Part shown: positions 23,525 through 55,724 of the stretch, piece by piece
How positions within the stretch are numbered: position 1 is the first letter of the stretch
Layout of the letters: each line of letters starts with the position of its first letter
From: Polytrichum commune
Lineage: Eukaryota > Streptophyta > Polytrichopsida > Polytrichales > Polytrichaceae
Direction: 5' to 3'
NCBI GenBank assembly: GCA_950295325.1
Contig: OX485808.1
Location: 64,501 to 128,500, forward strand
Length of the DNA stretch: 64,000 nt
Notes under the pieces: generated by a model
What the model was told of the DNA's origin: nothing
Database searches by the model: none
What the model saw: only the letters and a program-made list of their open reading frames with translations
Translations under genes and position numbers: made by a program

Positions 23525-24120
23525 AAAGTGAATAGTTGTGCGTGCCATGTCAGAATTCCTGTGCAAAGAAATTTGATCATTGGCCGGAGGGAAGGATGTT
23601 TTTCTTTTGGCAATTTGAGGGAGCTACAATAAATATGATATTTAGGGTCATACGGTATTTTAGGCCACTATGGTAACTTTCTGGATGACACTTCTTATGA
23701 ATAAGTGAACAATAATTTATATTCTCATGAATGATGGATTCATTGGCCAAAACCCTATCTTCTCTTGTCAGCAACTTGTGATGAAATATTGTCATGGATG
23801 ACTGAAATTTGGGTGAAAATCACTTGGTAAGTGACCGTAATTGCAACACTGTAAATCTACCCCCCCCCCCCAAAATAAAATTACTGGGAATGACAAATAA
23901 TGTTGGGTTGACATTTAGTGGTGGTGACACTATGTGCTATACCACGGTTTACAATTAGTATTGAGCAACGCAATTAGAATTGGTGACACTAAATATCATA
24001 TTTTGTGTAGTAAAAGAGCTGCTGGTAAGAGATAGGAATCTGATCATGTGGCCGGTGAAAGAGCTGGGCGGAAAGACAGGTGTTCGATGAGACAAGTAGG
24101 CAAGAGAGACAAGTGGCCGA
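23525..24120 (+). repeat. Dispersed repeat D, copy 1, split by a MITE
   Basis: 23535-23623 (GTGAATAGTTGTGCGTGCC, CTGTGCAAAGAAATTTGATC) and 24016-24110 (TAAGAGATAGGAATCTGATC, AAAGACAGGTGTTCGATGAG) match the continuous block 55524-55715. The sequence between is the family T MITE. The left side also shows the uninterrupted version of the site where the 54166-55519 element sits. Confidence 0.8.
23624..24010 (+). mobile_element. MITE family T, copy 1
   Basis: Ends are CTACAATAAATATGATATTT and, inverted, CTACACAAAATATGATATTT, both followed by AG(G/T)GTCA. It is 387 bp, non-coding, and carries a poly-C run near 23863. Absence of this block from the matching locus at 55.6 kb confirms that it is an insertion. 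GAGCT occurs at both outer flanks, but the exact duplication is unclear. Partial relatives lie at 48211-48430 and 53930-54149. Confidence 0.82.
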
Positions 24121-25499
24121 TGAGGTTCGCTAATGTCAGAAGGCGGCTGCTTTCCTCCGTGGTGATGGCGTTGGTTTCCTTAGGCCGCAACGGAGGTTGC
24201 TACGGGCGGCAGGGTAGCGTGGTGCGGCATAGCACAGAGTAGCTCTGCTCTGATTATTTTGGTGTTTACTTATTTATTGGGAGTCTACTCCGGTGAGGAG
24301 CTCTCTGTGTTGATATGTTGCATGCTTTGTGAATTCTCTTGTTTCTTAGTTCTCTGCTTTGTGAATGAGCTCTCTACTTATTGAGTGGTTTTTGTTGAAA
24401 ACAGAGAATAGTTATGGGCGGTGCCAGAATACGGTTGGGATGGTGAGTAGGGTGAAAGAGAGGAGGAAGTGGTGGGCGTGGGGAGACGCCATAGCTAGAA
24501 AGCTCGGAGACTTTTGTGACAAATGGGGAAGCTTAAGTCTTTTTTACTTGAAACAAAACTGAAAATGTGTTGGTGTTGGTGATGTGTTTCTGTGTCTGTT
24601 TTTCTTTCCTAAAATATGTACTAAGGGGTCCTACTATATTAATAGAACCCCCAATAACATGTTAGATTAAGCTCATGGAGGATTGTGAGTACTGTTAACA
24701 CTTTTGTACATACTAAACACATGAAACAAACATGCCCTTCCAGAAAATTCGGGAATTCAAAGAGCATAGGATAGAGGGCGCTCTATTTCATTTTTATTAG
24801 TGCCCGGGTGTAGTTTCTGCATGGGATACAAAGGGTCTCAACCAAAGTAGGATTGACACTATGTATATGGCTTTCAACTCTACGAGTGTACATTTAGAAT
24901 CTACCATTTCCATAGATCTTTAAACCACCTAGTGGATGAGAACTACAGTAGTGGCAAGATTACATGATCCCGGGACATAGTGTCTTGAAGATGGTTGTCA
25001 AAGAAATATGTTGGTTGGGCTTTGATCCAAGCAAGATACACAAAGATTATCATACAAGCTTTGCATGCTGTTGATATATCAATAGCATATAGGAGATGGC
25101 CAACCTTCATCTTCTGCAGCTGACTTCAAAGGCACATTAAAAACTGTTGAGGTTCATATCCAACATATTCTGTAACATCAATGGTTGGAGACTCGTGATC
25201 CACAAATGCAAAATGTAAGGAGTAGTGAAATTTAAACGAACTACTACGCTCAATTTTAAAGCACCAAATAGCAGGGCAAGCTGCACCAGATGCTAACATA
25301 AGAATACATCTGCACATTGATGATTAGAGTGCAAAGAAAACACTCTTTTCTGTTGCACCCGTTACAAACCTCAGAAATCCAAAATGATAACCAGCTCTTG
25401 ATACGCAAGAGTAATACCTATGCACACTATCCAACAAACATTGGTTAAATTTAAAGCCATATTTCCCCGTCTTTCTTTGTAGAAAGGGTGTGCTGCATG
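24121..25499. other. Intergenic and LPP 3' flank, nothing further assignable
   Basis: No convincing gene. The last few hundred bases before 25500 are likely the LPP 3' untranslated region (minus strand). Confidence 0.4.
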
Positions 25500-28364
25500 T
25501 CAACCTCGTGCAATATTGGAAAGTTCCACAGATCGTTTGTCTTGTCCTGCTTCCAAATCATCTGGTGGGCCATGTAGAGTAGGCACAGCATGAGGACCAT
25601 GTAAACCATGGCTGAATATTGGCTGTGGTTCATACTCATACGGATATCCAGCTGTAAAACAAATTGAAAGCCACCAATTTCAGTCCAAGAACAAGTATGA
25701 GAAGTTATGAACTCAATCTACAAAGCAGCTAGTGTCATGTTAATCTCACCAAGGGAACTCCCCTGAGACTCCAATCTAGAGAAGTACTTCAAAAATCAAA
25801 GCAAATTCTTCAGAGTGAGGTCGAATATGTCCTTTGCAGGAACAGTGTATTTCATAGCACAAGATCACTCCAAGTATTCCAGAATAGACAGGAAGAAAAT
25901 TGCAACCAAGTTTCTAGTATTCATTGGGCTTCACAGACCATTTTAATAACTTACTCTAATGAATAGCACGCATGTCATAATCCTAGCTAGAATCTAGAAT
26001 CACTCAATTCTGGTTCTGGACTGAGCGAGATCCAGTGCTGACGTGAGCCCATGACCTTTTTTGAGGATCGAGTATTCTAAATTTCTGATCAAATACTCCA
26101 GGTGGAGCCCTTTCTACTGATTCTGAGATTCTGTTAATGGTCCTAGAGGAGGGTGCTTGAAATCTGAAATTTACTAGTCATTTTATCATAGAAATATACC
26201 AAGTTAATACAGTTCCAGTTCAGTATAAGATGCCCGGAATAGAGTCCCTCATAAGATGAACTCACCCCATTCTCCAAAAAAGATGCTTGGAAAATGTTGC
26301 CTGTAAACCAAGTAGGCAATGGGAAGTCCTGCAAAATGTAGCGAAGAACAGTGAATCAAACAACCAATCAAGCATTTCAGACAAAATAAAATGAGATTTA
26401 CATTCTCATTAGACTGCTCCATATACCCACAACTGAATAACGTAGATACTCCATGGAGTAACTGATGTTGGATGCAGTTTGAAAATTCAGTATTGATCGA
26501 TGCCAGGAGACAACCAGAGATCCAGCGAAAGTACAAGAGCAAGATTTACAGTTGCTTACCTACAGCAGCTGCACCGATGATATCCACCCACCGGTGTTGA
26601 TAATCATTAACCCTAGATATCGCAATCAAAAGCGACACCAGTTCTGGGAAAAGCACAAAAAATATTCTCGATGTGTAGCCCCTTTTGTCAAAGATGCTTA
26701 GCTTTCCAGCCAGGTACAGTGACAGGTAACCGAGTCCACCAAAGCACCCTGGTATTATACCAGCGAACCAGATACCACAACTGACATTCTTAGATGCATT
26801 CTCTCGTATCAATGCAAAATTTTCAAGATTCTGAAGTACAGGACTGGTCCACTTGTGAAGCGGTGATAGTTTTCATTTTCCAGTATGAAGCCATCCAGCA
26901 AAATTCTATTGAAAATCCCCACTTCACGAATCTGGAGACTTGATAAATAGAGTAGCAGAAACTGGCCATTCAACAGTAAATACAAGTCCCTTTCAAGAGG
27001 TATTCCCTACTTCAATCCAGAAGTGAGAGTCGAATATTCCATGCTCGAGCATACCAGACACACAATTTGTTTACATGCAACAAATGCTGACATACTTACA
27101 TGAAACATGTCCACTGGGGAAGCTTTTATAACCATCGCGATACTCGCTTAAGTTCACAGGGTGACAAATTGCTTGTCCAGTAACATTGGAATAATTCTGC
27201 AAAATATCAAATTTGTGCCCGAAATTTTCCATCAGAGCAGAGTTTCAGTCCCTTCTTACTGGAGTTGACAACATAAGAAAGCCTCCTTTGACAGGATTGG
27301 TAAGAGTTACTCGTACCGCGATGCCATCAGGGAAGCACCTATCAAAGAAATCAGGTCGTGGCATCCCAACCATATTCTTGATGGAGTCTGTGAATAGTGC
27401 AGTCATCGCAACTGTTGTTGCAAGGCCTGTAGAAAAGCAACTTTGCAACCACTTCATTTATGACAATAAACAGTATGACATGTTGTCAGATATGCGCCTG
27501 AAACTTCTGCACCATCACCTCACCCATCTAAGGGTACTGAAATAACCCAGATACAATGTTATAACAGTAATAGGTGTGCCGTAATGATAGATTGAAATGT
27601 TTCTAGGTATTTTGTACAAGCAGTCTCCTTGATTTCAACGAGACAAGATACAACTTTTTGGCATGTAAAGCGCAAGAGTAGAAACTTCATGTAGAGTAGT
27701 TTCACCGAACACATGAAACTCAAACTCTGAGCACATCTAAGATCACAGGTGTAAACATAGCCTGAGAACCATACAGGGAAGGCAAATTTGCATACAAAAT
27801 AACGCCAAGATAAATGTAACAGGTTCATCATCTAACATAATACTTGAAACAACCACTGCTTACCGAGGCAAGCATTGTGAAAATCACGGATGCTTCTCCT
27901 CCTGATGAAGAAGGCAAGGAACATGAAAAACGGAAAGAGGACTGCAACAATCTGTTTCCAAAATACAGTCAAAGAACCGATTAGTGCACCTAATTCTAGA
28001 GGTCTAGTACCCGTTGACACAAAAACCAGAACTACTTTGTTCTGCACAAACATGGGATTCTATGGGCGGTTCACAAAATTTGAGGCAGGGTTAAATTTGT
28101 CTACCTCCAACAGGCCGGAGAAGAGAGAGTTATGTGACCATGACAGAGATTACATACCCCTATCGTCCATGTTGGGACGGTGTCCGGTCCTGTTGGAAAC
28201 ATGTACTCCTGCATCTTCACTTTGTCCACAAAGCGGTGAAATGGCGTAATGGCGATGTATACGACAAGCTCCAGGGCAATCATGACAAGAATGCCCAACC
28301 AGTCTCGCAAGTGATGCTTAAGCAATGCACCCAGGCCCACCTTTTGATGGGGCGGGCGCTCCAT
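25500..28364 (-). CDS. LPP: Lipid phosphate phosphatase (PAP2 superfamily), complete
   Basis: Seven exons on the minus strand: 28364-28158, 27951-27864, 27426-27317, 27196-27100, 26748-26560, 26328-26266 and 25651-25500. They join to 906 nt, predicting 301 residues; every joint is in phase. The three phosphatase signature motifs are intact: K-NMVGMP-RP (KX6RP), KSFPSGHVS (PSGH), and SRVNDYQHRWVD (SRX5HX3D). Around them are about six hydrophobic spans (for example DWLGILVMIALELVVYIAI and IVAVLFPFFMFLAFFI). Such integral membrane enzymes dephosphorylate phosphatidate and related lipid phosphates, with the active site facing the lumen or outside (family knowledge). The start ATG at 28364 gives MERPPHQKVG; length is close to Arabidopsis LPP proteins. 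Upstream leader introns probably extend the transcript to about 29.9 kb. Confidence 0.95.
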
Positions 28365-29960: not shown

Positions 29961-30156
29961 GGACATTCATCCTTGGGAATGTGCTCATCTGCGACGGAGG
30001 GGCCTCCAACAATTATTTTAGCTGAGAATTTCAGTGACCATAACATTCTTCAGATCCATAACAGTGTTCTGTGGGAATGACAGACTGAATGTGGGGAATA
30101 TTTTGCAGAATATTGTTAGTCTCACATAACCTTGTTATGAATATGAATAATGCTAT

Positions 30157-30634
30157 GACACAAGTCAAGAGCCGTGACCATGAAATTGTGAGAGCCCGAA
30201 AGAAAGTGTCCAAAGGCCGTCCCAACACTCCTCCAAACTCATGTAGTGTGGTCACGGACCCTCAAGTGTAGTGTGAAGCCATATGTGACTAGGCCCTAAA
30301 CCAAATGCTATTTCGATGAGTTTCTATTCATGCGGGTCCTCACGCATGATAAAATAGAATAAACTAACGGTTGTGAGCATTCAGAGTGCCATGGTCTCCT
30401 GCTTTTGTGTTAGGCCTACCTCCAAGAGCTGGTGTTTGAAAACAATCCAAGTGACCATGAAACATGATTCATTTGATGCCATGTAGGAATCCATGTAGAC
30501 TTTACATTCATCTTGCATTCACTAACTCCGTTGGTCCCTCAAGCATAGTGTGAATTGGCTCCGCCTTTTCCACCAATGAGAGTGCTTGAAATGTGACAGT
30601 CATGGGCTCTCAATCTCGTGTGTGAAGTGGCCCT
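30157..30634 (+). mobile_element. MITE family A, copy 3
   Basis: Matches 3881-4375 from CAAGAGCCGTGACCATGAAA through to the end GTGTGTGAAGTGGCCCT. The first ~12 bases of the left end are replaced or lost. Confidence 0.75.
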
Positions 30635-30639
30635 CAGTT

Positions 30640-30830
30640 ACTTCTTCAAATTGGACGCCTATATTTGAGTGGTCTCTAATTTAGTGTGGCTCTCACAATG
30701 GATATAAAAAAAGAAATCCATTTAAAAGAAGAGAGTGGACTATAGGTTTAAATTATAATAACCATTATAGACTCAATAATCAACATAATTTGGGGGGGGG
30801 GGGGAGAGACCTATTTGATTAGTTGAATCA
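30640..30830 (+). repeat. Repeat R, copy 4, with a 14-base G run
   Basis: AAATTGGACGCCTATATTTG, GAAATCCATTTAAAAGAAG, AGTGGACTATAGGTTTAAAT and a poly-G run at about 30790-30803, then AGAGACCTATTTG. It directly abuts the end of MITE A copy 3. Confidence 0.58.
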
Positions 30831-33829: not shown

Positions 33830-34495
33830 ACGTGACCTTTGAACAAATCCTCTGTTTATTCAGCTTGCTTCGGAATGAATGAATTTGGATGATCAGACGC
33901 TCCGCGCTCTTCAAGGAGTTTCAAACCCTACTTACATTTTCGTGTTTCATTGGAGCAAACCCTGTTTGGTGCTCATTGCCACTCCTCACCTTTCAATTAC
34001 TTCCTCACACGTCGCCTTTCAACAATGTCTCTGCTTATTCAGCTTGCTTCGGAATGAGTGAATTTGGATGATCGGAGGCTCCGGCTCTTCGTTGCACATG
34101 AGGAGCTGCAAACCCTAGAATTGATTTCGTGTTTCCTTGGAGAGCATGAAGCCCAGAGTTGCTAGAGTGCATGGATTGACGGAGGCTGTGTAGAAGGTAG
34201 GACGATGATACCTCTGGAGAATTATGGTGTTTGGGGCTCATTGCCACTCCTCACCTTCATTTACTTACTTACACTTCACCTTTCAACAATTCCTCTGTTT
34301 ATTCAGCTTGCTTCGGAATCAGTGAATATGGATGATCGGAGGCCCCGGCTCTTGATTGCATATGGGGAGCTTTAAACCCTAGAATTGATGTCGTGTTTCT
34401 TTGGAGAGCATGAAGCCGAGAGTTGCTTGAGTGCATGGACTGATCGAGGCTGTATAGAAGGTAGGACGATGATACATCTGGAGAATTATGGTGCT
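33830..34495 (+). repeat. Triplicated segment in the VPS15 upstream region
   Basis: Three direct copies share TTATTCAGCTTGCTTCGGAA, TGAATTTGGATGATC and AAACCCTA: about 33850-33976, 33980-34240 and 34241-34495. Copies 2 and 3 are nearly the same for about 250 bp (GTAGGACGATGATACNTCTG, GAGAATTATGGTG). Copy 1 is shorter. Each holds an AAACCCTA telo-box-like motif. They end about 260 bp before the VPS15 ATG, so they probably cover its promoter and leader. Confidence 0.8.
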
Positions 34496-34754
34496 GGAAT
34501 CGAAGGCTAGGCGCGATGATTCTGGGAAGATTGCGTTGTACGAGGTGTTTTAGAGTTTTAGTATTGTTCTAGGGGCGAATTTTAAAAGTCAATTGCGTAT
34601 GCTAAATTGATTGCTGCCTCGAGATGCCTGCCTGCGTCAACAGCAGGTTGTAAGAATTGTGGCATGCTGCAATTGATATTTACGTGGAGCAGACTTAACC
34701 TAGATACTCATGAGCTCTGCATGTGTATGTGAATTAGTTTAAACTAGCGCAAGC

Positions 34755-37700
34755 ATGGGGAACAAGCTAGCCCGCACCACACAGGTGTCGCCATCGGAGT
34801 ATTATTTACACGATTTGCCGTCTTCCTACAACTTGGTGTTGAAGGAGGCCCTGGGAGGTGGCCGATTATTGAAGTCGGTCCAGTGTGTTCACGATGAAGG
34901 GCTGTTGCTGGTGAAAGTGTACTTCAAACGAGGCGAATCTCTTGATTTGAAGGTACTCTCCCTGTCTACGTGGATGGGCTCTTTGGCTTGTCGATTGACT
35001 CATCGAAATGCCAAACCTTCACGGGCTCTTTGTTAATTGGAGAATGAGTTCCTATTATGACTTTTGCTGGTATGTGTCTATAGCTCGATGCTTTCCTATT
35101 TACCATCTCACGTCTCTTGGGCCTGAGCAGGAGTACGAGAAGAAGTTACATGAAATTCGAGATCAGCTCAAGGACATTGAACACTCGCATGTATGGCCTT
35201 TTCAGGTGAGGAGGTTATTCCAACCTTTAATCCTACCTATAAGTTTATTCTGAATCTGCCTCATTTGAGCACGAGCATTTGCTGAATTCGTTTTTGTGTT
35301 GGTCCCGGTGCTAATTGATATGGTATTTTTAAATCGGTAAATTTCCTGAATTCAGTTAAAATTTGCATTAGCAATTGGTACGGAGCGTGGAGCCCTGCAA
35401 GTGCTAGGTATCATTCTCGACGTACCAATTGTGGCACTGACTGAGCACAACCGACGAAGTGCTTGACAAATCAATGGATGACGAGGTCATAGATACATAT
35501 ATATTTCCCCTTCGAGTCTAAGCGTGACTCCAGCAATCTTGATTCAGGGAACACATGTAATATAGATCGTCAGAGCCCGAGTCAAGAAGAGCTGTGGAAA
35601 ATTTGAAATCGTCCAGGCTATAAAATGATAGAAGATTCAGGTGCCCTGGATGATTGAGCCATGACGAGGACTGTCTGCTCATAGAAGCGATTCTGCCTTC
35701 ATATCACCGAAGAGATCGTGTCTCTAAATGCGTTTTTAAAGATTATATGTTTGCAGTAGAGAAAGTTTGAAAGGTTTTCTAGAGGTCATAGTACATCATT
35801 ATGCCAAGCATATCACCTCGGTGCAATGATTACTTCAGTTTACTTCAGTATGTGTATGCACATATGGAGAAGGGTTGGTGTGTTGTACAGGGCATACCCT
35901 TGGAGGTCCTATTGCCGGAATCATTACCCAAAAACTTGAACCTAATTGTAGCTGTCTGATTTCTGGCAAGAACTACATGGAGATGTAAAGGGAAGAAGTA
36001 GTAGTAGAAGAAGAAGCAAGACATGTATCTTGCTCTTGTACACTGTCTCTTGTCATTTCTATGTGAAGGACAATATTCCTGTGTTTTTGTAATCGGCTCT
36101 TAATTTGTACTTCAATATGTTGTATTCTACATGTTCAGTTCTATGTCCTGCAAGGGTTTTTCCGGACTTGGTATTTTGTTTTGTTTATTTTCAGTCTATA
36201 GAATGGACTTACATTGACTTGTAAGCGCAATGCAGCATTGGCTTGAGACTGATAAGGCGGCCTTCTTATTACGACAATACTTCTTCAGTAATTTGCACGA
36301 TCGCATCAGTACACGTCCATTTCTAAGCCTAATTGAGAAGAAATGGCTCGCTTTTCAGGTATTTGTTTCTGTTGCATTTTTAAAAATGATGGGGCCTTGT
36401 ACAGTTGGCAATTTATCTGGATCATGAACTTTGGTTCCTTCCTTGCCTCAAAGATGTTGATATCAATGTGAAGACAATAGTGATTGTATATGTGCACTTC
36501 TGTTTCTGTCAATGAAGAAGATTTGCCTGATGTGAATGAGCATTTCTTGTGGCTTTTGCAGCTGCTACATGCTTTGAAACAGAGCCATGAGCGTGGAGTG
36601 TGTCACGGTACTTGCTTGAACATTACCTGTTTTAATTTCTTGACAGACTCATGGATATCAAATGATTAGAGATCCTTCGAAATTATATGGTCATATTTAT
36701 TTGAATCAACATTATGTAGGATCAATCAACTTGAGAAAAAGTCCTTATTAGTGATCCTAGTGATTGTGATTAATCTGGAGATGCAGGTCTTTATAGCCCA
36801 ACATAACTTCACAATAGTTAGATTCTTGTAGTCCATTTAAGATGCTTGATTGGGATAGTACCATAATTATCTGTATTCTTCACTTCTGCCTCCCTTATGT
36901 AATGGGTTCACAATGGCCTTCAGATCGTTTCATAATAAATGAAAGCTTGAAATTGTACAGTGCTTGCATACTGGTCCAATGAAATGAATACAAATTGATA
37001 GTTGTTCAACGAGGAATAGTTGACTTCAAAACCTTCATTCTTTTTAATTAACATGGATATGGCATTTTAGTGTCCAATGTGAATATGGCAGTTATTTTTT
37101 ACTGTTCTTTTGAAACCTCTGGATCTTGATGAACTGATCTTGGGTGGCCTACATTCGCTTCATGACAGCGACCCCTAGTCCTTTCATCTGTTGTTAGTTT
37201 ACAAGTCTTATTTGTACTTATGATTTTGTTGGTTGATTGTCTTATTGGCAGGAGACATAAAGTGTGAGAATGTGTTGGTTACATCATGGAACTGGGTGTA
37301 TCTGGCCGACTACTATGGTTCTCTGAAGCCCACCTTTTTACCATTGGACAATCCATCCGATTTCTCCTTCTTTTTTGATACAGGAGGTCGGCGTCGTTGT
37401 TATTTAGCACCTGAGGTCTGGAAAATCTATACCTTCTCTTCTCTGCTTTCCAAATAGTTCAGGTTTTGGGCTTGTGCATTGTGGCAAAAAAAAGATTCTG
37501 TGGCTTTTTACTGCGAATTCTTGATTTTTCACTTTTTGAAACATCATCCCTGATTACATAGCCAGGTTAAGTATATTCTTTGTCTTTCTTTCTTTACAAC
37601 CCTCTTTTTATCCCTACTTCATTACATGGGTTTCTCCCTCTCTTCAATGCCTGTTTTGCACAGCTTATTCTTGTCAACACTAATCAGAGGAGATTATCTT

Positions 37701-40700
37701 AGTGTATATGGTTACTGCTTGGATGACAGTGCTTAATTATATCTGCACCAAGTCTGCGAGGTTAAAACCTCTTTGAAGTGCATGCTTGCCACTATTTGGC
37801 TATTTCTGCATGTTTGCTATATTTTCTAATTCATTGGTGTTCTTGTTTGCATCCTTTGGATTGCTTTAGGTTGAGTATGTAACCCTAGTATATCTGGTTT
37901 AGCCCTCTCTTGGTTACTTACTGGGCTATGTACTAGTTACCTACATCTGTATGTGTTGTCTGAAACATGATACCACAAGGATATGTATGCATATTTCAAT
38001 TTGTAGAAACTTGATACTATCATTGTGCACAGTAGGTTCCTAAGAGTCAAAGGAGCATGAAAAATTCAGTATGATTCCATGTGTTGCATGCAGAGATTCT
38101 ATGAGCCCAATGTTGACCCGCATACAACTCTAGATGCTCCACTAACGCCTGCAATGGACATCTTTTCTCTTGGGTAAGCGTTTGCTTGAAAGATTGGTTA
38201 CTCTCAAGTTGAGTAGGTCTACATATTTTATTTGTTTGAGAATACTCAAGTGATAATGTTTAAGAATATCCGTCTAGGTGGTGTGTATTTTCTTCAGGTT
38301 CTTAAACGTTCTGGGTAAATCAACATTTTGCAGTACCAATTAAAAGTATGTCTACAATGTCAGGTGCGTTATTGGGGAGATGTTTCTGGAAGGAAAAGCA
38401 CTATTTGATTTGTCACAACTCCTAGCTTATCGGAAGGGAAATTTTGATCCGCGCCCATCACTTGAGAAGGTGATTCTCATTCCTTTATGCCCTTTAGGCT
38501 GACTGATTTTTGAAACATACCAGTGTCTTAAGGTTGATTTTTGGTGTACCAGTAATATTCTCCTAATGATTGCAGGGTGTGGTATTGATAGAATGCCCAT
38601 GATTCCATAGTCAAGCAGCTTTTTGTTTATTGTTGGAAGGGCCTATTGTTACAAGGGAATTTCTTTGCATAATGATGTTTACTTGTCTATTGCATGCCCA
38701 GATCCCAGATGCCGGAGTGCGTGATATGATTCTGGATATGATTCAAGTTCTGCCAGACAAGCGCTCTACTCCAGAAGAGTACTTGAAAATGTGGTCTCCT
38801 TCAGTATTTCCAGATTATTTTTCACCCCTTCTGCATGACTTCTTCTCATATCTTGTTCCTCTGGACACTGATAATCGAGTAAGTCACTAACTCTTTCTTG
38901 GCAATTTTTGTGACCTGAGTTCTTGTTAATTGTGAGGTCTTCTGAAATTTGAGATTGAATTGAATTTAAAAACTATTAACATCCTGAAACAGTCTAATGT
39001 CCCAAAGTACTACTGAGGATATGCAGCCATATTTGTCATTTGTGAAATTATTCTCCTGAGCTAAGTAACTTGGAGATTTTTTACGAGAATCTGTTGGAGA
39101 TTGTGGGTTTACTATTTAAAGTCACATGATGAGGTGAGGACTACCTGTTATGTTTATTTCTCTCGTAATCATGCGTATATCTTGAACAGGTGGCTGTGAC
39201 ACAAACCTTTTTCCCAGAAATTCGCAAGCAAATGCTTGCAGATTCTCATAGGCGGCAAGCACGGGAAGGAGGGAGTGGCGGTATTGTTGATTTGGTGTCC
39301 CCTAAGAGACCCAGCATATCACCTTGTCAAAATAATGAAGGCCATGGTGTTGGAGATTTTATTGTAGATGAACTTTTTACTGCCGACTCACCAAATTATT
39401 TGTCGGAAATTCATCTTCATCCAGATACAGCATCTGGTTCTCCACACCGAGTCAAAGCTGCAGCTGTGGCCATGGCCGAGGCTGCGTCTGCTGTCGAAGA
39501 GGTTGTCACTGAGGAGGTTAGCTCAATTCTTTCTTTGATCTTGCTTGTGATCGGCGGGCTTATTGGTACTTTTCAAAGATGTGAAAGTGGATAGAGTGGA
39601 TCATATCTTATTGGTGTTTGTTTTCCTTTGAGCCCTGAGGGTACTTAATTCTGTGTGTTTGTAGACTGTGAGGTAAAACTGTAGATGTTCAGTTTTTGTT
39701 GCTGGGATCAATTGGCTGTATTAGCGAACAGTTTTAAAATGCAGGCTGAAAGCTATGCTATCTAGAACATTCTTTTCCAGTTTATTGTCAATAGTTCTGG
39801 TACACAAGCCATCTTATCTCATCCAAGAATTTGAGCTCATTGGTGTAGCCAAATTTTCATCTGGCTGTAGGTTTATGAGAACCAGGTGAGAGAATCAGGT
39901 GGCATATTTAATGAACGACTTCTCCACACTGGCGAAGTTACCATGCCTAGTTATGGAATCACAGGGTCTGGTCGACGAAAAGATGATGTTAGTCTTCCTG
40001 TGGAGGGCGGATGGAGGTGGGATGGGGATTGGGAAGTTGACTTAAGCTGGGCTCAGAGTGGTATGTTGCGCACAGAACTTCTTGTCTCTACTGTGTATCT
40101 TACTTGGATTGCCCTTGGCTACACCCAATCTTCATTTGAGGCTTAGCAGTGTGCATAATGAGTCGTGATGTTGAGTATTTGTATTAAATGAAACTGCTAT
40201 TGAACTAGTGCTCCTGAGCAAATACAACAGTTTTGAAGTTGCACTTTTACTTCAGTGTCATGATTGGTGTGAAAGGACAGTTATTTTTGTAATTCCCGAG
40301 ATATTTAATAGTGTCAGTCCTGTCTTTGCAGGGGTAGGAGCTGATGAAGAAGGTTGGAAATATAGGAAGATGAATACTGGTGATTCAGAGGGTGAAGGGG
40401 GAGTTCCTGCCAAGAATGAAGGTGTTGGTATGAAGGGGAGTGCATTAGGGGACAGTGCCCTCAAACGTACCTTGTCTACATCTCGTGGTTGGACATCCAC
40501 TTGCACATCTGATTGCATGTGGAGGCAAAGGAAATGGATACGCAGGCGCCGAAGGCGACCTTGCCACCCCCTGCTGGTCTTGCAACCAAGTGCCGTATCA
40601 CCATCTAAGTCAGGAAGTAAATTTGAGGGATCACCTATACGATCCTCCAAGGTCCTGGATAGTGGTTATGAGGTGGTTAATGAACAACCACAGAAATGTG

Positions 40701-43700
40701 AAGGCATGGTTCTGATAGCAGCCCTTTTGTGTTCATGCTTGCGTAATGTCAAGCTGCCCCAGGCTAGACGAGGTGCTATCCAGCTACTTAAAGAGTCCTC
40801 TCTTTACATAGATGATGATGCTCGACTCCAGCATGTAATACCTTATGTTGTAGCCCTACTATCTGATTCCGCTGCAATTGTTCGATGCGCTGCTCTGCAA
40901 ACTTTGTGCAATGTATTGTCTCTGGTGCAGGTAAATCCTCTCCCTGTATGACCTTGTTTTCTGTCACTGGATGCCTCCTTGATCACTGCCTCCTGAGCTA
41001 CCCTTTCATTACAATGAGTAGGAGATATGGAGAATTGGTTTAGCTTGTCATCTCCCTGCAAGAATGTCACTATGATCCATTTTTTAGCTTTGAATTATGT
41101 GAGTAACTACTGGGGCAGGTTGTGCATTCTGAGTTGGCATAGTCATCCATGGCATCCATTCAAAGATATTAGTCCTCAATATGAAAATATGGTAATTCTC
41201 TCTACTTACAATTTCCTTGGCTGAAGGTGTTCCCGCCAAGTGATGCAAAAATATTCCCAGAATATATTCTACCCTTGCTGTCAATGTTACCAGATGATCC
41301 AGAGGAGAGTGTTCGCATTGCGTACGCTGCAAATATCCACAAGATTGCGGAGACTGCAAACAGGTTCATGACGCACTCACAGGAAATTCATGAGATAGGA
41401 GGTCTGGATTCTCCATTGAACCGTGCAAAAGGCTCGTACATGGAGAGGAAGCTAATGAGTACTGTCAAGCATACGGTACGCTTATTGACCTTGTCATTGT
41501 TTATTTTACGCTTCACTGTTCACTTTCATTTTAGAGAGTGCTTGTTGTAGATCAAAGCATCTGGGTGTAGTTCCTTCAAAACCTGAGGAGCTTGTGACTT
41601 GCTTAAGTTGGCTTCTTCAGTGTAGGTCTTCAGCATGACTATGTCCTATACTAATGGATGTGTAAATGTTCTTGTGCTGTTAAGAATACAAATTTATTTT
41701 TGTACTGTGGAATAGGTTCTATGGAGAGAAAAAAACTTGGGCAATTTGATGCACTGATTTGCAATGTTCCAACCTATGAGTGTTTGTCCCATTTTTGTTG
41801 AGGTTTGATGTTTTATGTGCCAAGCTTGCAACTACAACTAGGTATAGGCCACACATTCAGGATTATATAGTTGTGTGGATGGTGTTTCATGGAACAGGGG
41901 AATTCAGGGCCTGGAGGCACAAATCTTGCGGTGGGGCGCACTGAAGGAGAGCTTGCACATTTGAGAGAAACAATTGCTCGTGTTATACAAGAACTAGTGA
42001 TGGGTCAAAAACAAACTCCAACAATTCGACGGGCCCTTTTACAGCATGTGGGGTCTCTCTGCCGTTTCTTTGGTCCCAAACAGAGCAATGACTTTTTGCT
42101 GCCAATTCTTCCTGCTTTTCTCAATGACCGTGATGAACAGTTACGGGCAGTATTCTTTGAGCATATTGTTCATGTGTGTCTTTTTGTTGGACAAATGAGT
42201 CTGGAAGCCTATTTGCTCCCTTATGTAGAACAAGCTCTCAATGATGTGGAGGAAACAGTGATAGTCAATGCAACAGAATGTCTTGCTGCTCTTTGTACAC
42301 ATCGTCTTCTCCGTAAGAGGGTGCTACTAGAGGCTGTTGAAAGAGCATCTCCACTTTTGTGCCACCCAAGCCAATGGGTACGGAGGGCAGCTATTACTTT
42401 TGTAGCTGCAACAAGTGCAAATCTAGAGCCAGCTGATTCTTATGCTTTTTTGTCACCAATTCTGGAGCCATTTCTACGACGAAAACCTGCTTCTTTGTGT
42501 GCTGAGGCTGCCCTACTAGCATGCCTTAAACCACCGGTCTCAAGGGAGGTATTCAATCGTGTTTTAAGTGATGTCATGTTCCTGCAAAATGAGAGGGAGA
42601 AGGCACTTGCAACCAAACAGGGTAATCAAAAAATGAAGAGCCGGCGAGTTGCTCCCATTCAGCCTGCTCCTGAGCTTGCTGTGGGTAGTGGTCTGAGACC
42701 TGCAACTGACAGGAAAAGAAGTGAAAGAGGTGGAGACTATTCTTCCATATCAAGCGATGTCCCTCAAGGTCCACCTAGAGGTGCTGCCAAACGAAGTGGA
42801 GTTCCCAGTCTTGTACCTCAGTCTCTGCAGAAACCAGCTACTGTGGAAAATGATGATGGAGAAAAAATGAAAGCAATGGAGGGCTACATCCGGAACTTGT
42901 CCAGCACCATGCAAACACGGATGCATAATTGGGAGGCAGAGAACACAGAGAAACTTCAAGGATCTGCCATTGGTTTTGCAGCTGGTGTTGGTGCTGGGTT
43001 TTACTCAAACTATGATGGTTCTTCTGAAGGGATTCCTCTTTACTCAGTTCCCTTGAGTGAGAGAAAGCTTGATCATCCTCCATCAGGACAAGGAGGAATG
43101 GTGCAGGGCGGGGATGCTAACCCTTCCTTCAATGAAGAGTGGAGCAGAGTGTTTGGTGTTCGGCAGGGATCAATGCCCTATCTCATGGCAACAATAGCAG
43201 GGACTCCAATAAGCCCTTCATTAGGTCCAGCGTCCTCACAATGGGCAAACATTGCTGCTCATGCATCCATGTCTTCTGTGGAGCCCTCTTTACACAGGTA
43301 TAAGCAATCAATCTCCAGGTTTTATTTCGGTGCCCACAGAAAATGCTTGCAGCTTTATCTGCATTTGATATAAATGCTTTGGAATCTCAACCTTTCCCTC
43401 ATCCCTCTTTCTTCTGATTTCGTGAAGTTTAAGTAGCCTTTGCTCCTTTCCTGTCATCTTCAGAGTGATTTGTGTGCCTCCTTGAAACCATGTCATGCGA
43501 TATGGTACTATTTGGCTTTTGTAATCCTTAGTTATCCCAAACTCACCCATCACTTCATACTATTGGTGTCTGCATCTCTTGGTTGATCTTTTAGGGAAGC
43601 CATCTTACTAAGAATGTACCTGCTGCTAGGCCTGTGTTGGTCACTTGCAGGAATTTTAGTATGATAAAGTAGTGGCATTTTTGCAGATCACACGTGGCAA

Positions 43701-46700
43701 TGACAGGTTCGAGTGCCCCACGGCTGCTTGCAGGATCTGTGTATCAGGGAGCCAATCCTATTTCTTACAGGAAGTTTGAAGTGCTGAAAGATGCTGCAAG
43801 ACAAGATTCTGGGGAAGGTTTTCTGGCCACTGGGTTTGGAAGTGGCATCAACAGCATGGCGACCAGCAAAGGCAGTGTAGCATCGACTTCTGAAATGCTT
43901 GGAGGTGGGAACTTGACCAAGCCCAGTTCCAATGAGATCTCTTCTAGTGAAGTATCTCTTGACTCGTGCAGCCCTCCATTGGGATCATCAGGAGCTGCAG
44001 AAAGCTCTTGGAGGCCCCGTGGTGTTCTTATTGCACATCTTCAAGAGCATCAACGGGCAGTGAATGAGGTTGCAGTTTCCAGTGACAATATATTTTTGGC
44101 AAGTGCATCAGATGATGGAACGGTGAAGATCTGGGATTGTAGAAAACTTGAGAGAGACATTTCCTTTAGGTCACGCCTGACTTATCCCCTACAAGGCGAA
44201 GGACGTGCACTTTGTGTATCTATCTTGGGTAATGGGCATCAAGTTGCTGCAGCCTCCAGTAAGGGAACTATACATGTGGTCACAGTTGATTATGTGGCAC
44301 GACTGGGAGGCAGTTCAGATCGTTACACTGGTATCTCAGATACTCGGAAGCTGGACACCCAGGAGGGTAATGTTTTGACCATGCAAAACCTTGTCACTGA
44401 AGGACCTTCTCAGCTGCTGTACAGTACACAGAGAAATGGCATTCACCTTTGGGACCTGAGGACCCAAACTGATGCTTGGACATTAAGAGCAAAACCAGAC
44501 CAAGGGTTTATATCGGCAATTTCAGTAGATCCTGCATGTAATTGGTTGGTGTCAGCAACATCTCGTGGAGTATTGACGCTTTGGGACTTGCGCTTCCAGG
44601 TTTGTCATTCTCAATCCATCAGTGTGTATAGAATTCTATTAGTGGTTGCTTTCACACGCTTTGCATACAGCAAGGCTGTGGCCTTCTCTTGTGGGTTTGT
44701 GGGTCTGACACAACTATTATTACTTTGATGGCGACACCATTATCTCAGCTGGCAAGTCTTGGACCTAAGTTAATTTTTTTAGGATTCACTTGTCCCTATG
44801 TGGTTCAAGACATGGCAACGTAGAAGGTTCGTCATCTTCCACCAGTCTGGGCTTGGATGTTGTTTGTGAGGAAGTAGAGAAGATAAAGGTCCAAGTAAAT
44901 GTGAAAGGATCAAGCAAGGCCTTCCTCAGCAAGTGTAGAATGTAACCCGCATTGAATGTTGTCATCTATGAAAGCCTAACAAATTGGAGCTCTTTGTTTT
45001 GGTAGGCTCTTCAACATCAAACCCTCTCCAGTGAATTGACTCTACAAGATTATCAGAAATTTTGTCCGGCAACTGTGCCAATAAATGTATTCTAAATCAG
45101 GAGAGATCCTGAGAAGCAGTCATCTCAAACATCTCACTAATTTCTGTATCAAGCTCAGTTTCTATCATCTATATTGATGTCATCTTGTCAACTTTCCACA
45201 CAGATCCCAGTCAACATGTGGCAGCATCCAGCATGTTCTCGAGTTGAAAGCATGTGCGTCTTAGTTCCTGGTACAGGCACAACAGCAGCAACAAGCCAGC
45301 GTCCATATGTTTATGTTGCTGCTGGGCGGAATGAAGTAGCTCTATGGAACGCAGAAGATGGAACATGTCATCAGGTATTAGCTTTGTTTCCATCAAAAAG
45401 AACGGAATCTTGATTATGAGGAATTGGAGAATTGAGCACTCTAGTAATCAATACATCACAACACTTCTGGCATAATGTTTGAGTAGGTATGATTTCTCTG
45501 GAAGGATATGTTTTTGTAAAATATCCGCTGCCCAAATATGATAGATGTTCTAATTTATTGCTGCTGCTTCTAAAAAGTTTAAGTTTGGTGCTGGCTTGTG
45601 CTTAATGCAGGTTCTTAGGTTGTACTCTGATGTGGTGAACAATGACATGAATACTGTTCCAGCAGCTCTCAGTCAACCTGTAGCAAGCTCTCAGTCTGCA
45701 AGAGACACCAATTTTGTACGTGGTGTAAAACTGACCGATTACCGTATGGAGGAGCTAAATGAGCCTCCTCCTAGGTTGCCGGGGGTTCGTGCACTCCTAC
45801 CTTTGTCAGGAGGACTTGCTCTTCTCACTGCTGGATCAGACTGTCAGATTCGAATGTGGGATCGGTTGAGGTTAGCTGCTCTTGTCTATAATCAAAGTCA
45901 CATCATATTTGGACTAAGGGCCCCAGTCTCTTGCTGATTGTTTATCTGGTCACCTGTTTGACAAGGAGTTTAAAATACCTTGAAATACTTAAGTTAGTTG
46001 AATTGATGACTATTCCTTGTAAGTCTCACATAATATGTTTTCTTGCTCGCTGTGCAGTGGCTCCATTTTCCTGCAGTGCGATTGGCTTGCCTTGTGTATG
46101 CTGTTGATACATTGCTTTCTATAGATGTCTAATAAGTGTTTGATTGCAGACCTGAACGAAGCTATTGTGTAAGTGGCCCCACCACTTCAAGGAGTTCAGG
46201 AACCACAGATGTTCCCACATATGAACTACGTTCACTGACAGGTGTCCGTATTGTCCAGGTTGGTGCTCTAAAATCTTTGGTGTTCCTAAGAGTCGTCGTT
46301 TTGTGTAGCTGAGTTTGAGTGCTGGGAAGCACTATCCATGGTTGCCTGGGGACCCCATGAATCTTCTTTTGATGGATGCAGAGATCACTGCATTTTTTTC
46401 TGGCTTTATCGCCAACAGCAATGGCCTGCACAATGTGGTTTTAGTTCATCAGAGTATGTTAGTTAGTGGGGGTCATGAGACTCTCTATGAGCCACCGAAA
46501 TGATCGACGGACTCCATAGTGTGCTTAAACGGGTAGTGGCCATGGTACCAATAAGATTGCACTAGATGCTTTGATTTGTTTTCTTATCAGAATGACCTGC
46601 ACCTACTCACAGGAAAGAATTCATGATCCTGGAATGACCTGGTTGGGAATCTGTTATCTTGCAGGAGACACCCGGAATGGACAGTGGCAGTCGCTCATCA

Positions 46701-48210: not shown

Positions 48211-48430
48211 CTACACTAAACGTTGTGGTTAGTGTCACTTACAGTTTGGAGTTACACAATGCTATATCTTTACTATAATTGTAAATTTTTCCAAGTAAAA
48301 ACATTAATGTTTTATAATGTCCAAACAACCAATTTGACATTTGTTGACAAAAAATGAGATATGCAATAAATAGTTGTAGCATTGTGTGATTCCAAATATT
48401 AAGTGACACTAAATACAATATTTAGTGTAG
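48211..48430. mobile_element. MITE family T, short copy
   Basis: Starts CTACACTAAACGTTGTGG..TTAGTGTCACTTA and ends TAAGTGACACTAAATACAA..TTTAGTGTAG, an inverted pair of about 33 bp. It is 220 bp and non-coding. Related ends are at 23624-24010 and 54149. Confidence 0.78.
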
Positions 48431-48708
48431 TTGCCCCAACTTGGGAACTTTGCAATTGTTGGATCTTCCCAAGGTCCTTTGTGATGGAGTTGGTTTGCAT
48501 ATACAAGTGGTTGATCATAAAATTTGTTGATGATAGTGGGTTGAGTTGCCCTTGACATCAAATATTTGACAATTTGAAGGTGATGTTGGCAAACATATGG
48601 ACTTCAATTACAAATTATAGATAACTCTTTGAGAATCTTGAAGTGAATCTTTATTTCAATTTTGTTGAATTTTTAGGTGAAATACTTATGAGTTAACTAT
48701 AGTATAAT
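48431..48708. other. Spacer between two MITEs
   Basis: Nothing assignable. Confidence 0.3.
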
Positions 48709-48982: not shown

Positions 48983-49009
48983 CCTAAACCATGTTGTTCC
49001 CAATTTGGG

Positions 49010-49100
49010 CAAACCAACCCATACACTCGTTCCTTGTTGGATGCCTAAACCCTTGCCTCCAAGGAACCAATGTACAGGTTGGTTCACCCCAACATGTTGT
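49010..49100 (-). repeat. Short dispersed repeat shared with 55725-55800
   Basis: ACACTCGTTCCTTGTTGGAT and CCAAGGAACCAATGTACAG recur as the inverse complement at 55725-55800. It directly follows the MITE at 48709-48982. Confidence 0.65.
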
Positions 49101-50007
49101 TCCCCTATTTGCAATAGGAGTTCATAAATATGTGTATAACCATGCACTTGGCCATTAAAATAGCTTTAGAATGTGACCATTTAAACCATGCATTTCTGCT
49201 GTGAAACTTTCTATATTGGGTTACCAAGACTCGTCACATAGATTTATAATGTGGATGGTGGTGAATTCGTCATATTATTAGATTTAATAGGTTGCAAATG
49301 ATAAATGACAGGGGATTCGAATTTCCACACTGAAGGATGTATGTTAAAGTTATTAAGGGATAAAAAGTTTCTTGGCAGATGATCAAAAACCAACACGGAG
49401 CAGTTTTTAAGGTGTTAAGGTGGAGGACATTCTCAGAATCAATATGTACTTATTGTGCAAGAATGAGGTGTTAGTTTTGGTTGGGGTGATGGTTATAGCA
49501 TCATCTACCTAATATGAATACTCAACTCGTGCTACAGGGGCCCAAAGCCAGCACCATAACAGCCACTCCCATCCTCAGTCATTGATGAAGAAAACGCTTG
49601 CACAAGACATTGCTCATTCTGATTGATTTAAAGTACATTCAATTTGTTAAGGAAACCTCAGAACTTCACAACCCTCATTCGAGTCACACTCAATGCAGGG
49701 TTACTATTTTTCAGATTCACCACATGCACACCAAAACCTGTAGTCGCAAATTAAGTAAATAGAGCAGAATACATGAAATTGACACAAGTATATTATTACA
49801 AATGTGAATGTCTTCTCACAAGAGCCCGAGATCTACAATTTGGACAAGAATTACCTGCATTTGCAAAGGCTCACAAAATGGTATCAAGCAAACTGTAATT
49901 CTTTATCTCCACCTTGTTGACATTCACCACTGCGTTTGTGATTGGCTAGGCTTGAACATCTCCCATCATTCAGGACAATAACTTGAATACATGATGACAC
50001 TGAAATG
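49101..50007. other. Intergenic and NAA20 3' flank
   Basis: No gene visible. The part next to 50008 is probably the NAA20 3' untranslated region. Confidence 0.4.
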
Positions 50008-52974
50008 TCAGTCATACTCCAATTCTTCAGGGGTTACTGCTCGTTTTAATGGTATGATTGACTTCTTATGCACATCTCGAGGCATAGCTTTACGCATATC
50101 TGCCAAAACAAACATCATGAACCAAATTCCAACAGTATTTGAGAATGTAACATATGCCACAAAGGAAGACCATGATCAATTCTATGAAAGGGTATATCAC
50201 GGTCCTCTACATAAGTACAGATAAATAGTGTGCACAAAAAGGACCAACTGCTCCACATACATATATCCCAACATCAAGGCAGCATTTATCTTCAGTAGAC
50301 ATACCTAGTCCATCTTCCTCGCCTGAATAATACCTGAGCACCCGCCGATAAACAGAATATCCTAGCTGTATACAGAGATGCATGAGCAAAATGTGAGTCC
50401 GTTGTATCTCAGACACTTGATTTCACACTCACCCTCACAAGTAATGAGAATCTTAAATCTTGGACAGTAAGATGTCTAACAGATTTCATAAGGAATCCTT
50501 CTGGTAAGCAAACAAACAACAAAAAATGACCCAAAGGCTTTTGAGACATTTGTTCAGATGAGAGACCATCCTTCACTACCGTAGAATCCAGGTTTCAGGG
50601 TTTAAAAGTTTAGGTCCCCCAAGTCCTAAACCCTTGACACCCCTACTGAAGTCATCAGGAACACAGAAAGAAGGTTAACTTGTGGTGAACTAGGTTACAC
50701 TGGCGGTACAGGAATCTCATCATATAGCAAGAAAACTCACTCCAAAATCAAAGACAATAGAGGAGGAATAAAGATGCATCTAGACATGTAAGTGTTCCTC
50801 ATGGTGCATATCACCTCTTTATCAGCCACTCACTCAAATCTTCGTTCAAATAGTTGAATGTCCATCAAGACAGACTTGAATTGCAAGAAAACTTGCATTG
50901 ATGCAACCTGAATTTGTAGTCCTTACCTTTTGATACATTGTGATTGCCGGATTATTTGACGCTCGTACAAACAAGTCCACAAAGTAGCCATTGTAACTGG
51001 TCAATAGACAAACCCCACACACACTCTCAGATCAGAGCTCTTTCAGACGGTAGCCATGGAACCCCACCTTACATGACCTCACATGCTAAGAGAAGGTGAT
51101 CACAATCTTGTAACTCCCAGCAAAGGCAAATCCTTGAAAGCTTAGAGAGTAACAGGTGAATACATAGTTCACATAGCTATGACCTGATATACAACAATTT
51201 AGATATACGGAATCAACAGAAAATATACATGTATACATACACACATAGATATATACATTGCACAATATCACGCGAGGCTGACTTTGCTGACTATAAGAAT
51301 ACCTATCTTAGAGGTTGGTACACCAGCTATAAGAAAGAAAAATGACCAATAGCAGCACCCTAACAACACTATGTTCAATTTTTATAGCCACGCAGGTGCT
51401 CTTACTTGAATACTTGTGCACGAATGAGTAAGAATGTGCAGTGATGTACTCTAAATACCAAGTCCTACATCTAAATTTCCAAGCCAAACTTCAACCAGAT
51501 TTTCGAGTATGTTTACGTCATTTTACAGAAGTGACCTTACGTTTTCTCAGTGATGTCTTCCAGAATGTTCATCAGCTTCTTGGCAAGCTGCTGGCGACGA
51601 TATTCAGGTGCCACAGTAACGGCTGTGACATGGCCGTGCCAATTCTGCCCCTGGCCTTCCACCTTTCCCAAGACTGCCAACAGTGCATTCATCAACCACA
51701 AATTTCCACTTCCATCACTCTCTCCTCAACAGAACTTGGCTTCAACGTCTGTGTGAGCATCATGTTGTGAGAAATGCTCTCAGAGCTATCTTACTCTCTA
51801 CATTTGCACTCCATAGTCAACTGCACATCCTACATCCTAACGAGTATATATCTGCACTCGAGTTCATCTACATGACTTATCTGAGCATGATTTTCAAACG
51901 AGGTACTCTTACTTCTAGAAAAAGGATTAAACATTCTTTAAATATTAGGTGAAGAGCAAGAAGTAGACTCTCACCTAATTCTAAATTAGAGCAAGCTTGT
52001 AAATATCGTTTTCCAGAGCGTCCTTAAACATATTGGTAACCATTAAACAACACAATAGAAAATGAAGAGAGGTAGCTAATCCACAGACTTATACTTACAT
52101 ACTAAACTAAAAGCAAGTATAAAGACGTAACCAAGAACAATATTGAATTAAAAAGAAAACAATCATGCAGCAATAGCCAATTTGTGGCAAGCCTAAACCC
52201 TAAACAATCTGGATGGAAATAGCCACCTTCCACAACATGCCAACTCACTTCGCAACAGTGGATCCTAGTCTTAAGTTTATGATATATCTCCGGAGGCACC
52301 CGGCAGACTCGAGCAAAAGTGTTGTATAGCATGTGTGTACTCAGTCGCCAATTGAAACCAGGGAAATCAAGACGGCTACGCCTCTTCTCGGACGTAGAAA
52401 CTTCTAAAGAGAGATATATTGATTGTTTGAAGTAAGCATCCTATCTCTGCTAAGAGCAAGAAGTACACTCTTCTCTAATGGGAGGTTGAGAGCAAAGCCG
52501 AATTGCACTAGACGTAGATTAGATGATGGGAGGCCAGGCTTTGGTACAATAGGCTACAGAATTGACGAAGAGACAGAGAAGCAAGTGAAATATCAGGTTC
52601 GCATACTGTAGCCCATAATGGATCCGTTTGGCGCCTCCGCCAGATGGCAATAATCCGGCCATCTCGCCATGTAGGTCTGATAAAACGCCATGCTGAACTG
52701 AGGACACATAACCACATACGCAACAAGCTCCATCTTCAGCAAGACGATGAATTATATTCCCAGAACACTCGTGCTTCCTCAAGTACACACATGGCAATGC
52801 CTTCCAATATCGGAGTGCATCTCTAGTCCAGAAATGCAGCAACAACGAAAATGAACCCCAATCGATCAGACAACAGAGAAGAAGGGGAGAAATTACCGTT
52901 TCAGTGAGGTGGTCGATGTTGACATTGGCAAATTTGAGGAGATCGTCGCAACAGAATCGCCGAATCGTTGTCAT
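50008..52974 (-). CDS. NAA20: NAA20, catalytic subunit of N-terminal acetyltransferase NatB, complete
   Basis: Six exons on the minus strand: 52974-52897, 52697-52607, 51673-51541, 50996-50927, 50365-50305 and 50099-50008. They join to 525 nt, predicting 174 residues, with every intron phase consistent. The protein reads MTTIRRFCCDDLLKFANVNI, then DHLTETFSMAFYQTYMARWP, YILGKVEGQGQNWHGHVTAV, the acetyl-CoA-binding stretch APEYRRQQLAKKLM, YFVDLFVRASNNPAITMYQK, LGYSVYRRVLRYYSGEEDGL and ends TPEELEYD. These are the GNAT-fold features of NAA20 and the length equals that of plant NAA20. With NAA25 it acetylates N-termini starting Met-Asp, Met-Glu, Met-Asn or Met-Gln at the ribosome (family knowledge). 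It is convergent with VPS15. Confidence 0.97.
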
Positions 52975-53929
52975 CTTGCCGCACCTAATAATACTTTGTC
53001 TTCTAGTCCTAAACAAAAGCTCCACCAATTTACTCCAACTTTACGTTTTTCATTGACCTCTATGTGATGTGAGGGAGGGCGACGTGACACCCTAGCTTTT
53101 AAAACATCGCTAATATAACTCGCATCTGTCTGTCTGTCTAGCTCTTCCTTGTAGCAGAATTGGAAGACAAATGTAGTAGAGAATTGAAGCTTCTTATAAG
53201 AATTCAAAGCTAACTAAAACCCTGCATATACAAACATACCCACCCTCGTAACCTAGTTTCACATTGCACTCTCATCAAAGCACTCTGTCAATCGCCTCTC
53301 GGAAACAAACAACCTCAAAAGCAGAGATCATGATAAATTCTGCAAAGCGCCGTGAATTCTGAACACCGAAGTATATGAGCAGTAATTGAAGAGATTTAAA
53401 AACAGCCGGTACCTATGACCGGAGTGGCGATGCTGAATTTTAGCTTGGATGTTTTCAGAGTCATCAGAGTTTGGCAATCAAATATGAGGGATCATGGCAC
53501 AGGCCGAATCATGAAACCCTAATTATCGTATTTGTTACATAGGTGCTCCAGTGTCTCTAGGCAGGGTTCCATTCCATCCAACTCCGATTCTCGTGAGTAG
53601 CCATTCATCCCCTTCGCTATCTGTATTTTACTAGACATTGGCCACTGTGTCGACCCGGGCCATGACCATTACCTAACGTAATTTTCTTATAATCAGGAAG
53701 TGATTATGCACAAAATTAAAGAACTTTGCAAACAATTTGTTGGAAAATATGACAGTTTCATAATGAGATGGGTATGGTTGAATGTATGCTTCACCCTAAG
53801 AAACTTTGTAAATATTTATGGTTAAATATGGTGAAATTAAATATGGTTAAATATAGTGAAACCATGTATCACCACGTTAAAGCGCTTATTAAATATTTAC
53901 ATGGTGAAATTATGGACATTAAATATTTA
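52975..53929 (-). promoter_or_regulatory. NAA20 upstream region
   Basis: Holds the probable leader and promoter; AAACCCTAATTA at about 53513 is a telo-box-like motif. Beyond 53640 the DNA is AT-rich with repeated TTAAATATGGTGAAA-like phrases (53815-53935). No other gene is seen. Confidence 0.35.
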
Positions 53930-54149
53930 CAAAGTTGTAATTGTGGTCACTTACTAAGTGATTTCTCATCCAAATTTCAATGATCCATGACAATATTTCA
54001 TTGCATGAATGTTAGGATGCTGAATATACTAAACTTCATTTCAATCATTAATGACAATATTTGTGACCATATTCATAAGAAGCGTTGATAGAAAAGTTAC
54101 CAGAGTGACATAGAATACCATGTCACACTAAATACAATATTTAGTGTAG
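53930..54149 (-). mobile_element. MITE family T, partial copy (inverted)
   Basis: From the end CTACACTAAATATTGTATTT (inverse of 54130-54149) the minus strand follows the 23624-24010 element through CTGGTAACTTTTCTATC, GAAATATTGTCATGGATCA and AATCACTTAGTAAGTGACC. The far end cannot be located; it degrades into a repeat of AAATATTTA phrases. Confidence 0.72.
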
Positions 54150-54165
54150 TGGGTTGGCACGATGA

Positions 54166-55519
54166 CACGGGGGGGATCACACCCTCTTGCATTTTGTAAC
54201 CACGTGCGATAATGGGGTATTTAATGGGGGGGTATTTGTGCACCTCTCGGTATTTTTTCCCTCCCTATTTGTAGATATAAAGTTGCATTGACATATTTTT
54301 AAGCACCCTATGTTTATTTGTAATTTTTTGGAGAGACCAATTTTTAGCATCATATTTTTTTTATAAACTGTACAGGTACCAAATAATGAACATAATATTA
54401 TAGCATTGCAAAATCAACTATGTGAGCAACAAACGTTCCATACCATCCATCTTGTTATTTAATCGGTTTCAATTAGTTATACCAATGCTAAAGCATTCAA
54501 AGTGCCATTCAAAACACAATCAATAACACTTGGAGTTTAGTTAAAAGATTACCAATGAACATGAAGATGACAAAATGTACAAGCTAACATAGACAAGTTG
54601 TAAACATGGATAGAACAAAACAAGAAATATAATCAATTGTCATAAGACATGAAAATTTTGCATAATTATCTACTCCAAAACAAAAGATTGCATTCAATTG
54701 AAAAAACAAATACACAAATTGAAAATATTTACTTTAATTGTGTTCACAAACACATTCAACCTTGTACCAAATATTTACAATGTGAAGGGTTAATTAGGAT
54801 ATAACTATGCACCCTCCAATATATGTCAAGGTACATATCAATATCCTCTACAATGTCATGATAAGACAAAAAAATTGGAGAGATTTAACACCTATGATGA
54901 CAAAGAACTAAAACTAATTGTTGGCATGAGGCGGACATACCTCACGAGAGCGGAGCAAGCCGAATCTTTGGCGCTTGTAAAACACCCTGTGTGAATGCTG
55001 TGACTGCTATGGAGCAAAGAAGAAAGCTCCAAAAAATGTGTCTTACCTACCACCTTTGTGTCACGCTTCACCAATGTAAGACCTCCTACCCAAACACTTC
55101 ACCGCCTTCACACCACTATGATTGTTCAAACCCTAAGCAAACCCAAAGGCCGTTGAGAAGTCACAACATTCCTTCCCCCAAAAAAATCCACAACGTTTCC
55201 CTCCAAACTAACGCGTTTCATTCAAAATTGGACAGAATTTATACAATTCTTCATCTAAGTAGTCAAACCTATAAATATTCTATTGATTCTACTACACACA
55301 TTTGGGGGGATCCAATATCTATAATCCTATTTTTTTTTCTACTGATTACTAAAATGGAGGAATTATTCACCGTCTTATTTTACATATAAACATGTAGGGG
55401 ACATATTTCCAAAGCTATGGTAGATCTAATGAATGTATAAATTTTACCCTCAACGAATTAAATTGACCCTATTTTTTATCTCACGTGGTTTCTAAAATTC
55501 CGATAGTCACCTCCCCGTG
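54166..55519. mobile_element. Non-autonomous hAT-like element family C, full-length copy, exact 8-bp duplication
   Basis: It starts CACGGGGGGGATCACACC with TGTAACCACGTGCG inside, and its inverse end starts CACGGGGAGGTGACTATCGG with GAAACCACGTGAGA inside. The duplication CACGATGA lies at 54158-54165 and 55520-55527. The element is 1354 bp. About 560 bp of interior (54690-55290) is missing from the 11.4-12.2 kb copy. That interior has an open frame from 54991 with no family I recognise; it may be captured host sequence. No transposase motif. Confidence 0.93.
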
Positions 55520-55715
55520 CACGATGAATAGTTGTGAGTGCCATGTCAGAATTCTTGTGCAAGGGAATTTGATCGTTGGCCAGGGAGAAGGGTAATTTGC
55601 ATTTGAAAAGTTGAGAGAGCTGGTGAGAGAGATAGGAATGTGATCGTGTGGCTTGTGAGCAAGCTGGGTGAAGAGACAGGTGTTCGGTGAGAGAGCTAGG
55701 CCAGGAGAGGGCTGG
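55520..55715 (+). repeat. Dispersed repeat D, copy 2 (uninterrupted right part)
   Basis: GAATAGTTGTGAGTGCCATG, GATCGTTGGCCAGGGAGA, GAGATAGGAATGTGATCG and AGACAGGTGTTCGGTGAGA match 23535-23623 plus 24016-24110, with no sequence corresponding to the MITE at 23624-24010. Confidence 0.8.
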
Positions 55716-55724
55716 ATGGAACCA

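Follow-up and report, generated by a model that had tools for sequence, protein, structure and literature searches.

Reciprocal insertion footprints of two DNA elements in two copies of a repeat within a 64-kb window

The stretch of DNA analyzed here (the window; 64 kb, approximately 40% G+C and no unknown bases) contains two copies of a sequence, termed repeat D, that lie approximately 30 kb apart and span, with their insertions included, positions 23516-24108 and 54150-55709. Each copy is interrupted by a different element, and this arrangement raises the question of whether each locus preserves a related version of the site into which the other's element was inserted. An earlier note on this DNA had proposed precisely such a reciprocal relationship, quoting sequence texts that are indeed present at both loci. 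The components of the two loci are as follows.

23516-23623, plus strand: left block of the first copy of repeat D (D1), aligned to the second copy and containing, at 23524-23531, the E1 empty site (CAAAGTGA)
23616-23623, plus strand: left duplication copy of T1, TGAGGGAG, for which the empty-site 8-mer in the second copy is TGAGAGAG
23624-24010, plus strand: T1, a 387-bp MITE with 27-nt inverted repeats starting CTACA
24011-24018, plus strand: right duplication copy of T1, TAAAAGAG, which matches the left one at 5/8 positions
24019-24108, plus strand: right block of D1, aligned to the second copy
54150-54165, plus strand: left block of the second copy of repeat D (D2), including the left duplication copy of E1, CACGATGA, at 54158-54165
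54166-55519, plus strand: E1, an element of 1354 bp that starts with CACGGGG and finishes with CCCCGTG, and whose longest frame (54901-55386) has no match in Pfam
55520-55709, plus strand: right duplication copy of E1, CACGATGA (55520-55527), and right block of D2, containing the empty site of T1, TGAGAGAG, at 55612-55619

Removal of one insertion per copy yields a spliced D1 (23516-23623 joined to 24019-24108) and a spliced D2 (54150-54165 joined to 55528-55709) of 198 nt each, which align end to end with 158 of 197 columns identical. The divergence between the copies corresponds to a K2P distance of 0.23, and the gaps in their alignment amount to one single base on either side. The local score of this alignment is 228. 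Among 2000 joins of equal spacing taken from the rest of the window, with replacement of the 176 draws that had overlapped the D loci, the best score is 43, and a slightly shorter D core obtains a score of 215, with no more than 35 in 300 shuffles. Because the spliced copies align end to end, each locus serves as the related empty site for the insertion found at the other, with paralogous sequence spanning both sites without the element, in both directions. The check put forward in the earlier note, an alignment after removal of E1 and T1, gives the near end-to-end match it had anticipated, and the collinearity of the flanks of both insertions is observed directly. Together with the duplications, the alignment supports two independent insertions with limits at 54166-55519 and 23624-24010.

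The E1 element is flanked by a perfect target duplication, directly visible as CACGATGA on both sides with agreement at all eight positions, and D1 carries a single continuous CAAAGTGA as the corresponding empty site. Its terminal inverted repeats, CACGGGG on the left and CCCCGTG on the right, are short and become imperfect further in. Searching Pfam with the frame at 54901-55386 returned nothing at E 0.1, and no transposase was recognized among the 20 frames scanned out of the 56 in the window (frames of at least 95 residues). Given the 8-bp length of its target site duplication, a property documented for hAT-type elements in PMC7385995, and its short terminal inverted repeats, E1 is most likely a non-autonomous cut-and-paste DNA transposon of the hAT superfamily; the same paper lists the P-element and Novosib superfamilies, too, as occurring in plants. 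Two relatives of E1 were recognized in the window.

11387-12178, plus strand: E2, a shorter relative of E1 from which much of the middle is absent (82% identity over 552 columns, 87% over 253)
12497-13088, plus strand: E3, a decayed relative detected with nhmmer through a left-end piece (12497-12565, E 3.1e-06) and a right-end piece (12896-13088, E 2.1e-11)

The 8-mers flanking E2 agree at 4/8 positions. The end pattern CACGGGGAGGTCAC occurs seven times in the window when up to three mismatches are allowed, where 2.09 occurrences are expected and none of 100 shuffles reaches seven. All but one of these correspond to ends of E1, E2 and two further elements, P1 and P2; the exception (51625) coincides with no recognized element end.

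P1 (5807-6216) and P2 (6855-7250) are inverse copies of a MITE of approximately 400 bp, identical at 386 of 396 ungapped columns, and each is bounded by an 8-bp duplication that is perfect yet different between the two (TGTAGTAT and AAATGGGA). They are apparently the youngest pair seen in the window. To judge by their ends alone, which resemble those of E1 and E2, they may possibly be related to E1; a common origin of their interior with that of E1 is unsupported, with local scores of just 40 to 54 obtained without a shuffle control.

The T1 element is short, non-coding and bounded by inverted repeats well in excess of the 10 bp by which a MITE is recognized, with 27-nt arms that are 89% complementary. 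Its putative target duplication is decayed, with TGAGGGAG and TAAAAGAG agreeing at 5/8 positions, and the single TGAGAGAG at the empty site in D2 agrees with the former at 7/8 and with the latter at 6/8, all three differences being transitions. Removing T1 alone leaves eight surplus bases in D1, a directly observed excess, and removing T1 with one 8-mer closes the gap. Exact-pattern scans with the T end returned no matches in viral contigs and none in bacterial and archaeal genome contigs, collections in which absence says little.

The earlier note had also maintained that the comparison of the two loci yields exact element limits, and this stands insofar as the limits are drawn from the inverted repeats in combination with the duplications. 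The alignment alone locates the breakpoints only to within several bases. When the limits of E1 are shifted, 6 of 2601 pairs score 1 to 3 points above the predicted one, so that the alignment agrees with these limits and cannot fix them by itself; for T1, 5 of 2601 shifted pairs gain 3 to 4 points.

Since each element is absent from the other copy, the insertions of both E1 and T1 postdate the formation of the two D copies. The further contention that the window also reveals relative ages is not supported. None of the eight duplication bases of E1 and three of the eight of T1 have changed, and because this difference is not significant (Fisher p 0.2), a greater age of T1 than of E1 is a hint and not a result.

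The left edge of D2 raises the possibility that two insertions is an undercount, and it involves further elements of the T family.

53925-54149, minus strand (inverse to T1): T2, a second copy of the T family, with 72% identity to T1 across 237 columns
48211-48430, no strand assigned: T3, an element with T-type ends, recognized through end matches and weak nhmmer links, and mostly unrelated inside

The end of T2 abuts D2, and homology to D1 begins on the very next base (54150), at a point where D1 runs on. Because homology to D1 stops exactly at the T2 end, a third, half-visible insertion is probably present at the left edge of D2, so that the count of two made in the earlier note holds for E1 and T1 and probably falls short of the total. 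Either sequence on the left has been lost, or D naturally ends there. The latter reading, in which D is bounded on the left at 54150 and 23516 and T2 adjoins it by chance, is a possibility that we judge less likely than not. It is consistent with the lack of homology between the left flanks of D1 and D2 (300 nt, score 31, equalled by 179 of 500 shuffles) and with the search for the far end of T2 and its second duplication, in which the best candidate matched at 18/32 positions, compared with a mean of 17.1 and a maximum of 20 for the best matches in 200 shuffles. A break on exactly the last base of a T end, however, is expected of a T insertion but not of chance. A left end of T2 near 53740 that had been picked by eye was not accepted, the best search candidate (18/32) being no better than shuffles.

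The interior of T3 is linked weakly by nhmmer to T2 (E 0.053) and to T1 (E 0.53), and it has no recognizable target duplication, its flanking 8-mers agreeing at 2/8 positions. With the T1 copies agreeing at 5/8 and none found for T3, an 8-bp duplication for the T family rests on one case. One further T-like end, at 57530-57555, had no acceptable mate and was set aside. Each D copy in the window has a T element within it or directly beside it, the two elements differing in position and being oppositely oriented, and T3 is the only other T-type element recognized in the 64 kb. That the T family might insert preferentially into D is a post hoc reading of three elements, and we consider it improbable.

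As to what D is, scans of the window for tRNAs and for Rfam families gave zero and zero, and D is therefore not recognized as a tRNA-derived or known-RNA-derived repeat. An exact-pattern scan of viral contigs with a 29-base stretch of D returned no matches, in a collection whose nature means that absence says little. Within an explanation that we hold to be very likely as a whole, D would be an old, degenerate and short dispersed repeat. A real possibility, which we rate somewhat below even, is that D1 and D2 are instead what is left, after truncation at either side, of a segmental duplication or a larger element. Homology does end on both sides, the right flanks (300 nt) being as unrelated as the left (score 18, equalled by 485 of 500 shuffles), and another repeat starts 10 bases past the right edge of D2. 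Nothing decisive speaks against this origin, and it would leave the insertion history unaltered. The neighboring repeat is an 83-bp sequence present at 55719-55801 and, in inverse orientation, at 49003-49085, with 94% identity; both copies are nearly self-complementary, as in a very small palindromic element.

A different objection concerns the empty sites themselves. Cut-and-paste elements can leave their sites, and one or both of the sites could be excision products, an element having once occupied both D copies and departed from one. A perfectly clean excision is compatible with the data. Excision of hAT elements, however, as a rule leaves remnants of the two duplication copies behind, and the alignment runs through both empty sites without added bases, which makes this reading very improbable.

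The preferred history is thus one of insertion into pre-existing copies, and we regard it as highly probable taken as a whole. The two D copies would have formed first; E1, non-autonomous and with an 8-bp target duplication, would then have entered the copy at 54 kb, and the T1 MITE, with a putative 8-bp duplication, the copy at 23.5 kb, at another position of D than E1. A T-family element, T2, would probably have inserted at the present left edge of the 54-kb copy, with the sequence to its left later lost or rearranged. Mobilization is presumed to have depended on transposase encoded elsewhere. This history is favored by the spliced alignment and its controls (at most 43, versus 228), the E1 duplication, the surplus bases and inverted repeats of T1, the existence of E2 and E3 as dispersed relatives and the coincidence of the end of T2, a relative of T1, with the edge of D2. 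Against it weigh the 5/8 agreement of the T1 duplication, the lack of a duplication at T3, the slightly higher scores of some shifted breakpoints, the unlocated far end of T2 and the lack of a recognized transposase among the scanned frames (20 of 56).

Several other features were noted in the window. Two frames, 41871-43370 and 43673-44725, have Pfam matches to the VPS15 helical domain (E 5e-13) and, among solved structures, matches to phosphoinositide 3-kinase regulatory subunit 4/VPS15 (E 8e-35), with a WD-40 repeat protein as the top match (1.2e-51). The frame at 34743-35033, which returned no match in a Pfam search, looks like the N-terminus of plant VPS15, and the region 34743-45934 is probably an intron-split gene for plant VPS15 (phosphoinositide 3-kinase regulatory subunit 4). 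The DNA is taken to come from a eukaryote, probably a land plant. A SNF2-related domain is detected in the frame at 62461-63057 (E 4.5e-08, above Pfam's cut-off). Repetitive sequence includes a dispersed repeat of approximately 490 bp in three copies (3879-4381, 8412-8878 and 30158-30640; 76 to 86% identical, one inverse), two tandem copies of a 264-bp unit at 33963-34493 (89% matches) and, at 14107-18491, related tandem blocks that form a family and have a period of approximately 202 bp.

The reciprocal insertion footprints are real but ordinary. They provide well-supported limits for two element families, from which a repeat library for this genome could be started, and they show that the E1 and T1 insertions postdate the D copies; otherwise, they reflect ordinary genome history. 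The use of related empty sites to prove past mobility is well established, and PMC2213677 describes 11 such sites for Medicago elements of the PIF/Harbinger-like type. In those plant DNA transposons, as here, element-free paralogous sequence proves mobility and sets element limits; the present case differs in that the relation runs both ways between loci separated by 30 kb, a coincidence of two related empty sites that entails no new principle. The presence of an element within a repeat likewise parallels the nested insertions described as common in maize and rice MULEs in PMC3903597, the host D being short in this instance. Finally, BniHAT-1 and BniHAT-2 of Brassica nigra are presented in PMC7385995 as short non-autonomous hAT-type MITEs with inverted repeats and 8-bp duplications; these features recur in the elements described here, with the duplication of T1 being putative, the comparison is one of features, and E1, at 1354 bp, is larger than a usual MITE.
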